Positions 30,571-35,769 of a stretch of DNA of 48,934 nt are shown here, in pieces. The notes under the pieces are model-generated. The model saw only the letters and a list, made by a program, of their open reading frames with translations, searched no databases and was not told the DNA's origin. This DNA is from a virus, in IMG/VR virus record IMGVR_UViG_3300021376_000096, positions 1 to 48,934 of that record. One strand, written 5' to 3'. Each line of letters begins with the position of its first letter. Position 1 is the stretch's first letter. The translations under genes and the position numbers were made by a program.

Positions 30571-31014
30571 ATGAGTTATAAGGGGCGTTATAAAGTCAAA
30601 AATCCACAAAAATACAAAGGTGACCCCACCAATGTTATTTATCGTTCATCTTTAGAGCTTAAATTGATGAACTATCTTGACATCCATCCTGACATAATAG
30701 AGTGGTCGAGTGAGGAGTTTTTTGTACCTTATCTGTCGCCAATTGATGGTAGATACCATAGATACTTTCCTGATTTTAGTATAAGGAGACGAGATAAGAA
30801 TGGTAATGTTGATAGGATTGTAATAGAAATTAAACCATCTTCTCAGACCAAGGCTCCGGAAAGGAAAAGTAGAGCAACACCAAGATATATTAACGATGTT
30901 AAGAACTGGGGCATTAATAACGCCAAATGGAAAGCATGTAAAGAGTTCTGTGATGAAAGGAAGTGGAAGTTCCAAATCTTAACAGAACGAGAGATCAATG
31001 GATACAACTACTAA
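30571..31014 (+). CDS. 4: Head completion nuclease gp4
   Basis: A 147-residue protein, the usual length of T4 gp4 (also called gp50). It carries a PD-(D/E)XK nuclease core: Pro67-Asp68 in RYFPDFS and Glu86-x-Lys88 in IVIEIK, with a conserved upstream Glu in YRSSLELKLM. The N-terminus (MSYKGRYKVKNPQKYKGDP) is typical. In T4 it is needed to complete filled heads before tail joining. No Shine-Dalgarno is visible; TATAAATA ends 5 nt before the ATG, so the mRNA may begin at AUG. First gene of the plus-strand tail operon; divergent from gp48. Confidence 0.92.
   Translation: MSYKGRYKVKNPQKYKGDPTNVIYRSSLELKLMNYLDIHPDIIEWSSEEFFVPYLSPIDGRYHRYFPDFSIRRRDKNGNVDRIVIEIKPSSQTKAPERKSRATPRYINDVKNWGINNAKWKACKEFCDERKWKFQILTEREINGYNY
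30636..30643 (-). promoter_or_regulatory. Possible late promoter GATAAATA for gp48
   Basis: Seven of eight matches to TATAAATA on the minus strand, inside the gp4 gene, 77 nt upstream of the gp48 start. No better candidate precedes gp48. Confidence 0.3.
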
Positions 31015-31603
31015 TGTTCGTGGATTTCAAAAGCTCCTAATAGAAGCAGAGAGGGATGGCATTGTATTAGATAATTCAGCTGAATCTCTATCGTGGCTAA
31101 GGCAAAACTATGCTACACTCTCCCCAAGGGATGTCATGCCTAGAGAGTTTATTAAAGATACTAATAGGTATAGAAAAACACCATTAATTGGTAGACTATA
31201 CATGTTTCTATATAAGGCTAAATATAAGAATGAGTTACCATATTATGATAGATTTCCACTAGTGTTTCCAATAAGAAGAGTTGGTGGTGGATTTTATGGG
31301 TTAAATATCCATTATCTTGCTCCAAGATTTAGAGCACTTTTAATGGATTCACTATATAGTACAATCAGCAATACAAAGTTTGATGAGACGACAAGATTGA
31401 GGATCAACTATGATATTCTTAATTCAGCATCTAAATATAGATGGTTTAGACCTTGTGTAAAACATTATTTGACACCATATTTGTCATCGCAATTACTTTA
31501 TATTGACCCTAAAGAATGGAACCTAGCTTTATTTGTTCCATCAGAACAGTTTAGAGGTGCAAACAAGAACAAGGTCTGGACAGATTCAAGAGAGATGTTT
31601 TAA
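30998..31603 (+). CDS. Conserved T4-like tail-region protein, unassigned (201 aa)
   Basis: Basic, aromatic-rich protein with the highly recognisable segment YYDRFPLVFPIRRVGGGFYG, then LNIHYLAPRFRALLMDSL, found in many T4-like phages next to gp4 and tube genes. I do not know its established T4 name with confidence. The start overlaps the gp4 end by 17 nt and has GAGAG upstream. It ends with TAATG overlap into the gp54-like gene, so it is made from the same message as head and tail completion proteins. A virion morphogenesis role is inferred only from context. Confidence 0.8.
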   Translation: MDTTTNVRGFQKLLIEAERDGIVLDNSAESLSWLRQNYATLSPRDVMPREFIKDTNRYRKTPLIGRLYMFLYKAKYKNELPYYDRFPLVFPIRRVGGGFYGLNIHYLAPRFRALLMDSLYSTISNTKFDETTRLRINYDILNSASKYRWFRPCVKHYLTPYLSSQLLYIDPKEWNLALFVPSEQFRGANKNKVWTDSREMF

Positions 31604-32607
31604 TGGCATTCAACATAGAAAAATTTAAATCAGCAACAAGCGGCGGCTTCATTAGGCCGTCAAATTTTTTGGTTTATATTCTGCCTCCAACATGGGCTTT
31701 AAATACTGAATATGATTATGACTTAGCCTATCTGACTTCAGCGGCATCGCTTCCTGGAATGCAAATTCTTACTCAAGAAGCAAGAATATATGGTGCTGGT
31801 CCAATTGTTAAGATGCCATACGATATTGCAACAACAGATATCTCAATGACATTTTATGTTGATGCTGATGGTATTTCAATCAACTATTTCTATGAATGGT
31901 TAAGAAATGTTGTTAATCTAAGTCACGACCAACTAGAAGTAAGGTCAGGGGCATTTAGCAACCAAATTGCATATAGAAGCTGGTACTCCACAAAGATAGA
32001 CATCATGTTATTCAATGATAAACCAGGTGGTAATCTTGAATCTCCTCAGGATGCAGCTCTAGCAATCTACACTCTATTTGATGTCTACCCAATTGGTATA
32101 TCTGAACCAGCTCTAAGCTGGCAGACAGGCAATGAAATACTACAATTCAATGTCACATTCTCATATAGATCATTTGAAAGAACAGTAGTCAATGTACCGG
32201 CAAAAAGAACTATTAGTATTCCTGGTGTGCCTATTCCTCCAAATGTTCCGCAGGCTCCATCAAGACCAATTCCAGTGCCACCTACTCTTTCGCATGAGCC
32301 TCCTCAGTCCTCTTCAAGACAATCAGGCAAGGCATCAAACAACACTAGACTTCAGGCTGTCAATGACTTTGCTAGAAGTTTGAGAGATGGTGCAATGAAG
32401 GTACGTACAGAATCAGTTTCTAAGGTTAATGATATTAGACAAGCAACAATGGGCAATGAATTTGTTCAGACTGGTGTTAATATCCTTAACACTGCTAATG
32501 AAATAAAGAGTACATTGGGTACTCTAAAACAACTAAACACTTCGCTAAAGAAGAATCTAATTCAAGATCTAAAAGGTGCAGTGAAGGGAAAGATTCCAGG
32601 TTTATAA
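31603..32607 (+). CDS. 54: Baseplate tube initiator, gp54-like (334 aa)
   Basis: The first 200 residues have the tail-tube fold pattern of gp19/gp48/gp54: MAFNIEKFKSATSGGFIRPS, LPGMQILTQEARIYGAGP, DISMTFYVDADGISINYFYE and the closing YPIGISEPALSWQTGNE, then FNVTFSYRSFE. In T4, gp54 sits on gp48 and starts tube polymerisation. Residues about 205-240 are a Pro-rich linker (VPIPPNVPQAPSRPIPVP) before a helical tail, an extension beyond the tube fold. Shine-Dalgarno GAGAG 9 nt before ATG; overlaps the preceding stop by TAATG. Confidence 0.8.
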   Translation: MAFNIEKFKSATSGGFIRPSNFLVYILPPTWALNTEYDYDLAYLTSAASLPGMQILTQEARIYGAGPIVKMPYDIATTDISMTFYVDADGISINYFYEWLRNVVNLSHDQLEVRSGAFSNQIAYRSWYSTKIDIMLFNDKPGGNLESPQDAALAIYTLFDVYPIGISEPALSWQTGNEILQFNVTFSYRSFERTVVNVPAKRTISIPGVPIPPNVPQAPSRPIPVPPTLSHEPPQSSSRQSGKASNNTRLQAVNDFARSLRDGAMKVRTESVSKVNDIRQATMGNEFVQTGVNILNTANEIKSTLGTLKQLNTSLKKNLIQDLKGAVKGKIPGL

Positions 32608-32627
32608 TTTAACAATTGAGGTGCATT

Positions 32628-33323
32628 ATGCCATTACCAAAGATTAGTCAGCCAATTTTTCAGCTTACATTACCATCAACAGGTAAAGTGGTTCACTATA
32701 GACCATTCACCGTCAGAGAAGAAAAGCTTCTCCTTATGGCTCAGGAGTCAAATGAGAAGAAAGATATTATTAATGTATATAAGCAGCTCATCAACAACTG
32801 TGCAATTGATCCAGTTGATGTGGATAATCTTGCTGCAATTGATTTGGAATACTTTTTTGTTTGTCTAAGAGCTAAGTCTGTTTCCAACATCTCTAAGATT
32901 ATGGTTACAGATAAAGACGATAACGAGACATATGAAGTGGAAATCAATCTTGATAAGATTGAAATTCAAAGAAAAGAAAACGTGTCAAGTAACGTGAAGC
33001 TAACAGACACAATTGGTGTAATCTTAAAGTATCCTACTTTCAATACGCTTACAAAAATTGATGAATCTTCTCAAGTGGATTCAACATTAGCAATTCTTAG
33101 GGGATGCATTGACCAGATTTATGAAGGCGAGGAAGTGTTTGACACGGCCAACTACTCAAAGCAAGAATTAGATGACTTTATTTTATCTTTGAATAAAAAC
33201 CAGATTGAAGAGATTCAAAAGTTTTTTGAAGCAATGCCAAAGTTAATCTATAATGCTAAGTATATGACTAAGGAAAAGGTTGTTAAGGACCTCAAGATAG
33301 AGGGCCTCGAGAATTTTTTCTAG
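32628..33323 (+). CDS. 26: gp26-family baseplate/tail assembly protein (frameshift upstream partner)
   Basis: A 231-residue protein of the T4 baseplate hub assembly (gp26-type) family, recognised from LPSTGKVVHYRPFTVREEKL, LLMAQESNEKKDI and DLEYFFVCLRAKSVSNI. ATG 32628 has GAGGTG 6 nt upstream; a frame extension to TTG 32616 is rejected. The last codons AAT TTT TTC TAG contain the heptamer T TTT TTC with a hairpin 4 nt later, predicted to send some ribosomes into the -1 frame and make a 295-residue product with the next ORF. Its place just before the tape-measure gene matches tail assembly chaperones of other tailed phages. The chaperone role is inferred. Confidence 0.85.
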   Translation: MPLPKISQPIFQLTLPSTGKVVHYRPFTVREEKLLLMAQESNEKKDIINVYKQLINNCAIDPVDVDNLAAIDLEYFFVCLRAKSVSNISKIMVTDKDDNETYEVEINLDKIEIQRKENVSSNVKLTDTIGVILKYPTFNTLTKIDESSQVDSTLAILRGCIDQIYEGEEVFDTANYSKQELDDFILSLNKNQIEEIQKFFEAMPKLIYNAKYMTKEKVVKDLKIEGLENFF

Positions 33324-33352
33324 TATTGGCTGGGTATAACAACCTAGCCAAT
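33314..33352 (+). promoter_or_regulatory. Programmed -1 ribosomal frameshift signal
   Basis: Slippery heptamer T TTT TTC at 33314-33320 in the correct phase with the gp26-family frame, stop TAG at 33321, a 4-nt spacer, then a hairpin: ATTGGCTGGGT (33325-33335), loop ATAACA, ACCTAGCCAAT (33342-33352), 11 pairs with one G-U. The -1 frame is open across the site and continues into the 62-codon ORF. Confidence 0.85.
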
Positions 33353-33514
33353 TACTATCAGACTATATTTGCATTATGCCAACACCATAAATATTCTATT
33401 AGTGATGTTGAAAATCTTTTGCCATTTGAACGTGACATTTATATTGCTATGCTAATTGATTATCTTGAAAAAGAGAAAGAACGATTACGTAAACAAGGAT
33501 ATAAAGACGTATAA
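33326..33514 (+). CDS. Short -1 frame extension of gp26-family protein (62 codons)
   Basis: The only possible independent start is TTG at 33326, with no Shine-Dalgarno, so the segment is most likely expressed by -1 frameshifting from the preceding gene, adding Leu-Val before this ORF. The sequence (AGYNNLANYYQTIFALCQHH, then LPFERDIYIAMLIDYLEKEK) is helical; FERDIYIxMLxxYL-type segments also occur in small proteins next to gp26 in other T4-like phages. It ends with TAATG overlap into the tape measure gene. In phages with known tail assembly chaperones, the analogous T domain binds the tape measure; that role here is inference. Confidence 0.82.
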   Translation: MAGYNNLANYYQTIFALCQHHKYSISDVENLLPFERDIYIAMLIDYLEKEKERLRKQGYKDV

Positions 33515-35769
33515 TGGCTTTACCAAAATTAGACAATACAGACATAGAGAAGAACCAAAAGATCATTATCCAAAAGATGGATGGTCTTAGTGCTGTATTA
33601 ACAGAAAAATTAGTTCCTACTATTCAAAAATTGTCGACAGAGTCCACTGTTGATAAAATGTTTCCTTTTGTTGTTCAGATTGCTGATAACATCTACAACA
33701 TTGCTGACAAACTAGAGGCCCAAGTTACTTCACTAAAAGAAGTCAAAGATGCTATAGAATTGTCAAAGCCTAAGGCTCCGGATGAAGGAGCTAGCATTGA
33801 GGCTGAGAGAGAAAAGCAGAAAGAAAAGAAAGAGCCTGAAAGGAAAGAAAAGAAACAAAAATCCTTTTTAGAAAGGTTGGGTGAGATATTTGAGAAGGTA
33901 CTAATACCGCTTATTTTTGGATTTGTTATTGGACTATCTAAAGCGCTTGGTGGATTTGAATCTACGGTTGGTAGGATAATTACTATATTTGCTGCTCTCT
34001 ATCTTGCATTATCGGGATTCAGAAAGAAAGTTAATGAACTAGTAGTTTCTGGATTTAAGAAACTATTTGGTGGTGGCAAACCACCTGTACCAGCTGGAGG
34101 TGCGCCAGCCGCAGTACCTGGAGTTCCAGGTAAGGCACCAACCCCAGGAGCTCCTCCAGGCGCGCCTGGCGCACCTGGCGCACCTGATCTGAAGGGAGGC
34201 AAGCCAGGACCATCAGGACTAGATAAGTTTCTAGAAGGTGCCAAGAAAGTCGGCAAATCCATTAAAGATTTATTTGTTGGTATTGCTGATACTATCAAGC
34301 AAGTATTAGGCAAGTTGTCAGAAGGCATTAAGCAATTCATCACCAAAGTATCAGAAGGCATCAAAGCCCTATTACAAAATATAGCTAAAGGTATCGAAAG
34401 CTTTGGTAAGACATCTGTCCTCAAAGGCGCCGCCGCCTTATTGGTTGTATCAGGTGCGCTGTTTGTAGCAGCCAAAGCATTCAAACAATTTGCTGATGTA
34501 ACCTGGGATGGTGTAGCTAAAGGTGTCGTAGCTATTACAGCACTCGTTGGTGTTACTAAACTATTAGAAAAGTCATCAATGAGTATGATTAAGGGTGCGT
34601 TTGCTCTTGGTGTCCTTGGTGGCGCATTGTTTGTAGCGGCTAAAGGCTTTGAAGTATTTACTAAGATAAGTTGGGAAGATTTAGCAAAAGCTGGTGTTGC
34701 CATTGTTGGATTAACAGCAGCTGTTATCGGGTTAGGTTTGGCAGCTCCTCTCGTTACGGCTGGTACTGTTGCGCTTGGTATCATGTCTGTTGGTTTAGTT
34801 GCATTTGCTGGAGCTGTAGCATTACTTGGAGCTGGGTTATCAACATTAACAACTTTCTTCCAACAAGTGGCGGCCCTTGATGGTGGTCAGTTGGCAGCAG
34901 CCGCAGCTGGCATTACAGCAATTGGTATATCTCTAGCTGCTCTTGGCGCAGGACAGGTCATTGGTGCTCTTGGCAACTTTGCATCCTCGATTCTAAGCTT
35001 TGGTAAGGACGATATATTTACTAAGCTAACAAAGCTAGGTGAAGTGGCTGGTGATTTAAATCAACTACCAGGTACAATTGAAGCTTTAGGCAAACTATCA
35101 AACTTCAAAGTCTCAAATGACTTTATGAAGAATGTCGATATGCTATCAGCTGGTCTGAAGAAGATTGCTGAGTCAGCAAAAGGATTTGAAAAGACAGGTG
35201 ATTCATTAACTGCTCTAGCTAAGATTGCTGAGGTAATGAATAAGCCAGCTGCTGGTGGCACACCAGGAGGTGCTCAGCCAGGAGCAGCACCAGGTAAGCC
35301 TGCTGCAGGTCAGCCTCAAGCAGCCCCTGGTAGACAAGTAAATCCTGAAGTAGAGAAGGATGCTCGCGCTCTAGAAGAACGTGCAGCCAAGCAAGAACAA
35401 CTAGCGGCTAATATGCGTAAGTCTGGTAACGAATCATCCGCAAAAATTATAGAAAACAAAGCGGCAGGTGATCGCCGCTTAGCAGCTCAGCTGCGAAATC
35501 CTGTGGATTCAAAGGGTCGCCCATTAACGGAAGAACAGCAACGAGCAATTATTGAAGGTAGACCAGCTAAGGTAGGCGAACAACTAACAACAGACTCACA
35601 AAAGGTAGAAGCTGCTAAGGGTGGTGCTGGTGGTGGTTCAACTAATGTTGTCAATGCACCACAGCAATCTGTTGTTAATGCTCCACAGAGCCAGACAGTT
35701 AATACACCACTAAGTGCCTTTGGCACATTTGGTGGTAGAGTAAGTAGAGCTGTTTCAGCTCTGTTCTAA
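33514..35769 (+). CDS. 29: Tape-measure/hub protein, gp29-like (751 aa)
   Basis: Architecture of a tape measure: N-terminal helical region with a charged coiled coil (residues about 90-125), then several hydrophobic segments (LIPLIFGFVIGLSKALGG, IITIFAALYLALSGF, GAAALLVVSGALFVAAKAF, a long Ala/Gly/Val block around 390-470) and a Gln/Ala-rich C-terminus. A collagen-like stretch GAPPGAPGAPGAP lies near residues 209-226. In T4, gp29 fixes tail length and sits inside the tube. It follows the gp26-family frameshift pair by TAATG overlap. Homology to gp29 is inferred from position and architecture, since tape measures diverge fast. No membrane function is implied before injection. Confidence 0.8.
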   Translation: MALPKLDNTDIEKNQKIIIQKMDGLSAVLTEKLVPTIQKLSTESTVDKMFPFVVQIADNIYNIADKLEAQVTSLKEVKDAIELSKPKAPDEGASIEAEREKQKEKKEPERKEKKQKSFLERLGEIFEKVLIPLIFGFVIGLSKALGGFESTVGRIITIFAALYLALSGFRKKVNELVVSGFKKLFGGGKPPVPAGGAPAAVPGVPGKAPTPGAPPGAPGAPGAPDLKGGKPGPSGLDKFLEGAKKVGKSIKDLFVGIADTIKQVLGKLSEGIKQFITKVSEGIKALLQNIAKGIESFGKTSVLKGAAALLVVSGALFVAAKAFKQFADVTWDGVAKGVVAITALVGVTKLLEKSSMSMIKGAFALGVLGGALFVAAKGFEVFTKISWEDLAKAGVAIVGLTAAVIGLGLAAPLVTAGTVALGIMSVGLVAFAGAVALLGAGLSTLTTFFQQVAALDGGQLAAAAAGITAIGISLAALGAGQVIGALGNFASSILSFGKDDIFTKLTKLGEVAGDLNQLPGTIEALGKLSNFKVSNDFMKNVDMLSAGLKKIAESAKGFEKTGDSLTALAKIAEVMNKPAAGGTPGGAQPGAAPGKPAAGQPQAAPGRQVNPEVEKDARALEERAAKQEQLAANMRKSGNESSAKIIENKAAGDRRLAAQLRNPVDSKGRPLTEEQQRAIIEGRPAKVGEQLTTDSQKVEAAKGGAGGGSTNVVNAPQQSVVNAPQSQTVNTPLSAFGTFGGRVSRAVSALF

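Follow-up and report, generated by a model that had tools for sequence, protein, structure and literature searches.

The locus immediately before the tape measure gene in the contig analysed here, which comes from a marine relative of phage T4 (IMG/VR record IMGVR_UViG_3300021376_000096, taken at its full length of 48,934 nt and referred to below as the window) is very probably a tail-assembly-chaperone (TAC) locus, whose sequence signals predict a programmed −1 ribosomal frameshift and, with it, two products, TAC-N and TAC-NC. The TAC-N gene (positions 32,628–33,323, plus strand, as are the other features of the locus) belongs to the gp26 family and encodes 231 aa ending in Phe-Phe; its product matches the profiles PF12322 (T4_baseplate, E 2.4e-52) and phrog_150 (baseplate hub, E 4e-59). 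The 3′ end of the gene reads GAGGGCCTCGAGAA-TTTTTTC-TAG, with GAG AAT TTT TTC TAG as the codons at 33,309–33,323. The slippery heptamer T TTT TTC (33,314–33,320) is in phase and abuts the frame-0 stop TAG (33,321–33,323), no sense codon lying between the two, which bears out the canonical −1 heptamer, in the right phase and directly before the stop, that a preliminary description of this DNA had claimed. Among the 29 long ORFs of the window, this is the single case of an in-phase heptamer of the T6 type within 10 codons of the ORF end. A search of the region 32,600–33,700 against Rfam gave no matches.

After the predicted slip, the −1 frame (TAC-C, 33,320–33,514) begins with the codon CTA at 33,320–33,322, reads CTA GTA TTG (Leu-Val-Leu) and stays open for 64 codons up to the TAA at 33,512–33,514. 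The TAC-C product matches phrog_634 (baseplate hub assembly catalyst, E 2.5e-23), with a weaker match to the C-terminal end of phrog_150. The short ORF of the preliminary description thus keeps its frame and extent and is now identified more closely as homologous to the C-terminal part of T4 gp51. Taken as a 62-residue ORF on its own, it has no ATG before residue 43, and its only early start-like codon is a TTG at 33,326, 3 nt past the gp26 stop, for which no Shine-Dalgarno (SD) sequence was found in the preceding 15 nt. Judged by the signals and by the gp51 homology, the frameshift product TAC-NC (32,628–33,514) would have 295 aa (229 + 66) and would be the counterpart of T4 gp51. The gene that follows (33,514–35,769), whose ATG overlaps the TAC-C stop, encodes a tape measure protein of 751 aa (phrog_4372, tail length tape measure, E 2.2e-13). 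The reading of Leu-Val into the short ORF, the want of an ATG and an SD sequence of its own, the 295-residue length of the fusion and the location just before the tape measure, all put forward in the preliminary description, agree with these data.

Relatives of the locus were gathered from IMG/VR and from GenBank phages by gp26 similarity, not by the presence of the heptamer, and the 199 loci obtained fell into 109 clusters at 85% clustering. An in-phase T TTT TTC, T TTT TTT, T TTT TTA or T TTT TTG, separated by 0 to 8 codons from the stop of gp26, was present in 198 of the 199 loci and in 108 of the 109 clusters, although here, as in the counts for the reading frame and for the SD-like element given below, kinship makes the clusters less independent than they appear. 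The −1 frame was open for 53–75 codons in all 105 clusters that could be tested (i.e., those in which it was not cut by the end of the contig). The conservation of TAC-C sets in immediately past the slip, ahead of any ATG, and includes near-invariant residues (Pro.99, Glu.99 and Tyr.96). Among the nearest relatives of the window, most of the changes in TAC-C are at the third positions of the −1-frame codons (e.g., 7, 0 and 15 changes at positions 1, 2 and 3, respectively). The arrangement was seen in phages of Synechococcus, Prochlorococcus, Methylophilales, Stenotrophomonas and Vibrio (KVP40), and also in those of Aeromonas, Agrobacterium, Ochrobactrum and Rhizobium. As far as sequence comparison goes, the heptamer and the −1 frame at the gp26 junction of T4-like phages are not a matter of chance, and the conservation check that had been proposed for both of them came out in favour of the frameshift.

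The same comparison bears on the other ways in which such a junction could arise. Two ordinary adjacent genes might produce it if the heptamer were only a by-product of the codons used for a conserved Phe-Phe and the open frame were accidental; the C-terminal Phe-Phe of gp26 is itself conserved, and TTT accounts for 70% of the Phe codons. However, T-TTT makes up only 46% of the [N/S/D]-Phe dicodons of the same contigs, against the 108 of 109 clusters in which it was found (binomial 4e-35, a value that overstates the strength of the result because the clusters are related by descent). In addition, Leu replaces Phe as the second residue in 10 clusters (TTTTTTA/G) and the six Ts are still present, which indicates that it is the T run, rather than the amino acids, that has been retained. 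The conservation of the −1 frame also contradicts this explanation, and an assembly error that splits one gene is excluded, since about 200 contigs and isolates that were assembled independently share the arrangement. Ordinary genes or a broken assembly are the least credible of the readings considered. Slippage of the RNA polymerase, rather than of the ribosome, on the homopolymeric T run of the junction is only marginally more credible. This run reaches 8 Ts in 11 of 108 clusters, but it has just 6 Ts in 60 of them, the window included, whereas the slippage described in bacteria involves stretches of some 9 As or Ts (PMC5009743). The run also always lies in the X_XXY_YYZ phase, which slippage of this kind does not require. 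Readthrough of the stop was also considered and discarded, since frame 0 closes 7 codons past the TAG and almost nothing (7 residues) would be gained.

Coupled re-initiation at the gp26 stop, by which the short ORF would be translated separately into a free TAC-C, has more to be said for it than the previous alternatives and is still improbable for the locus in the window. A start could be provided there by the TTG 3 nt past the stop; in KVP40 the two ORFs are joined by TAATG, an ATG is found within a few codons in DLP6, in locus L020 and in others, and gp51 is given as a separate gene in public annotations. Nevertheless, the first 12 codons of the −1 frame contain no ATG in 84 of 108 clusters, an SD sequence accompanies only one of the early ATGs of the remaining 24, and conserved residues precede any start. 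Furthermore, re-initiation leaves unexplained that the heptamer has been retained so widely. It may apply to the Vibrio phages K364, K448 and D528 (L009, L215 and L216), which have lost the heptamer, the gp26 gene ending in CTT TTT GCG TAA or CTT TTC AAG TAA, and in which the C ORF is in the −1 frame with an ATG that overlaps the gp26 stop (TAATG). In this group a switch from frameshifting to re-initiation is possible, judging from the junction sequences. A start codon of its own for the short ORF, together with the lack of the heptamer, is the pattern that had been named beforehand as speaking against a frameshift; it was present only in this distant Vibrio outgroup and not elsewhere.

The programmed −1 frameshift proposed for the window is also consistent with what the profile searches revealed about the T4 proteins. 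T4 gp51 is matched by PF12322 over residues 1–201 and by phrog_634 over residues 147–246 (E 1.2e-23), whereas T4 gp26 is matched by PF12322 only; hence, gp51 is an in-frame N+C protein and gp26 an N-only protein, and in T4 their two genes lie on opposite strands. That the C part is homologous to gp51 of T4 is, like the signals, their conservation and the order of the genes, established at the level of sequence, and the locus in the window would carry both of the T4-type products (N and N+C) provided that the frameshift occurs. An AlphaFold2 model of the window gp26 (pLDDT 83) matched models of viral gp26 proteins with E values down to 2e-17, and the model of a T4-type gp51 likewise matched gp26-family models of viral proteins. 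Helices and strands follow one another in the same order in the two models, with additional C-terminal helices in gp51. When the window gp26 model was compared with the PDB by Foldseek, nothing was found below E 0.26, solved TAC structures included, and no sequence relatives of gp26 were found in the PDB. In an older review, gp26 and gp51 are classed as hub assembly chaperones, and T4 gp51 is described as absent from the particle (PMC3004832). The old puzzle of a T4 protein that is essential and yet absent from the particle can be read simply as the long form of the chaperone, a reading published in 2022.

Candidate stimulatory elements were found on both sides of the heptamer. On the 3′ side, a stem-loop (33,321–33,357) has an 11-bp core (33,325–33,335 paired with 33,342–33,352) that contains one G.U pair and is separated from the heptamer by a 4-nt spacer. 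In the minimum-energy fold the stem is extended to 33,321–33,357, with 15 bp, one bulge and −19.8 kcal/mol, and the z-score ranged from −5.1 to −6.1 when dinucleotides were shuffled and was −5.3 when synonymous codons were. The near relatives L013–L021 share the stem of the window, their changes falling mostly in the loop. In the other clades, a few have a strong hairpin (z −4 to −6) with the stem in a different register, and in one of them two stem pairs were changed on both sides, so that these compensatory changes support a real RNA stem in that clade. A single hairpin conserved across the family was rejected, as the mean z against shuffles of synonymous codons was only −1.1, with p ≤ 0.05 in 29% of the clusters. 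The 11-bp hairpin with its 4-nt spacer, as previously claimed, hence stands for the window but is not general in the family. On the 5′ side, an SD-like GAGGG (33,300–33,304) precedes the heptamer by 9 nt. A GAGG-type tetramer 8–11 nt upstream was present in 64 of 108 clusters, a modest enrichment over synonymous shuffles (55.7 ± 1.9 expected; the highest of 500 shuffles gave 61). Before GG, GAG was used rather than GAA in 28 of 44 cases, against a background of 29% in the same contigs. We regard the heptamer and the frame as what is essential in the signal, and the stem and the SD-like element as lineage-specific boosters, as their distribution among the sequences suggests.

In cassettes of the dnaX type, an SD-like element is located 8–14 nt before the heptamer. 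The three parts of such a cassette, as known from Escherichia coli dnaX (upstream SD-like element, homopolymeric heptamer and a 10–11-bp hairpin a few nt downstream; PMC7282821), are all present in the window, with GAGGG at 9 nt and a stable hairpin at 4 nt, although the hairpin is not found in most of the other clades. The two systems differ in that dnaX uses A AAA AAG, with about 50% slippage that shortens the product, whereas the heptamer of the window is U-rich and slippage on it would lengthen the product.

In the mechanism that we propose, the majority of the ribosomes would terminate at the TAG at 33,321 and release TAC-N (231 aa), and a minority would pause at the downstream stem, probably aided by the SD-like GAGGG 9 nt upstream, and slip on U UUU UUC, so that UUU-UUC would be exchanged for UUU-UUU and CUA GUA would be read next. 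The slipped ribosomes would then translate 64 more codons, giving TAC-NC (295 aa). By analogy with gpG and gpGT of phage lambda, the tape measure protein, the product of the adjacent gene, would be coated with many copies of TAC-N and a few of TAC-NC, and the subunits of the tail tube would be recruited by the C domain. The occurrence of slippage at this site, its rate and the action of the products as chaperones are predictions drawn from the signals, and lambda-like binding of the tape measure and the tube by the proteins of the window would be expected from the analogy.

Frameshifting at TAC genes is reportedly conserved in several groups of T4-like phages, with T4 itself using genes 26 and 51, according to the abstract of the study by Vladimirov et al. 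(2022). The preliminary description had suggested that the T4-like gp26 locus can act as a tail assembly chaperone pair, which our data support and which was already published: the identification of the TAC genes of T4-like phages is credited to Vladimirov, Gautam and Davidson (Virology 2022;566:9-15) in two later papers (PMC10885494, PMC12846349). According to the account in one of these papers, some T4-like phages, instead of frameshifting, have a short gene and a separate long one that is a fusion (PMC10885494), and the other cites the same study for poly-T slippery sequences in their TAC-N genes (PMC12846349). As far as these accounts describe it, the system is the same as that of the window in its protein family (PF12322), its N and N+C products and its poly-T site in TAC-N; the window differs in nothing of kind and represents a further phage clade, whereas T4 has the two products in the separate genes 26 and 51. 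Frameshifting at the TAC genes of T4-like phages is in this sense already known, and the window adds a further member. What may be new here is the large census, the SD-like GAGG element and the finding of lineage-specific hairpins beside a near-universal heptamer and −1 frame.

The arrangement of the window also resembles the lambda G/GT genes of the Xu-Hendrix-Duda type, i.e., a pair of ORFs just before the tape measure gene that are joined by −1 slippage close to the 3′ end of the upstream one. In lambda, N binds the tape measure, C binds the tail tube, and the chaperone is absent from the virion (PMC5009743). Unlike lambda, which uses G GGA AAG, the window has U UUU UUC with the stop directly after the heptamer, and its N protein is unrelated in sequence and, in Foldseek searches, without a match in the PDB. 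A TAC-N/TAC-NC pair produced by −1 frameshifting before the tape measure is likewise found in the Vandenendeviridae and Andersonviridae (phage Adele; PMC12846349), in which the motif is a T-rich GTTTTT and the C part is usually misannotated as a separate gene; the protein families and the motif differ from those of the window.

A more speculative extension, which we regard as possible though somewhat doubtful, is that in the TAC locus of T4-like phages the heptamer and the −1 frame are retained everywhere while the stimulators (hairpins in different registers and the SD-like GAGG) are gained and lost by lineage, so that the ratio of TAC-N to TAC-NC would be tuned phage by phage, and that frameshifting has been replaced in T4 by the separate genes 26 and 51 and in the Vibrio K364 group by TAATG and a free TAC-C. 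If true, there would be three solutions to one dosage problem within a single protein family. The lineage-specific stimulators would also provide natural variants for studying how the ratio of the short to the long chaperone is controlled.

A frameshift at this junction would explain a gene that is routinely misannotated, its C part being entered as a separate, truncated gp51 that starts from an internal ATG, or being missed. In Synechococcus phage ACG-2014b (L220) and in Syn19 (L002), the public annotation omits the C part, as in ACG-2014b, or begins it at an internal ATG, which skips about 17 conserved codons; the junction peptide predicted for Syn19 is ...FFRIALLHNTLENYFQTNFALMHHHK... Several hundred records of T4-like marine phages are probably affected. 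In a T4-like contig (L213:2501-3246), gp51 is split by a change of frame near codon 120. This break was rejected as a frameshift site, since it lies in the middle of the domain and not at the N/C junction, and it is probably due to a mutation or a sequencing error.

Some observations concern the neighbouring genes. A paralogue of the tail tube protein (31,603–32,607; phrog_45, E 1.6e-34) immediately precedes the chaperone gene, as it does in other T4-like marine phages and in KVP40, where a duplicated tail tube protein is annotated. The heptamer of lambda G/GT, G GGA AAG, occurs in phase four codons before the stop of this tail-tube-like gene (32,580–32,607); it was rejected as a frameshift site because only a few codons are open in the −1 frame, and its presence is probably due to chance. 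Further upstream, the gene at 30,571–31,014 encodes a head-completion (gp4-like) protein that strongly matches the TnsA-like endonuclease N-terminal domain (PF08722, E 7e-22).
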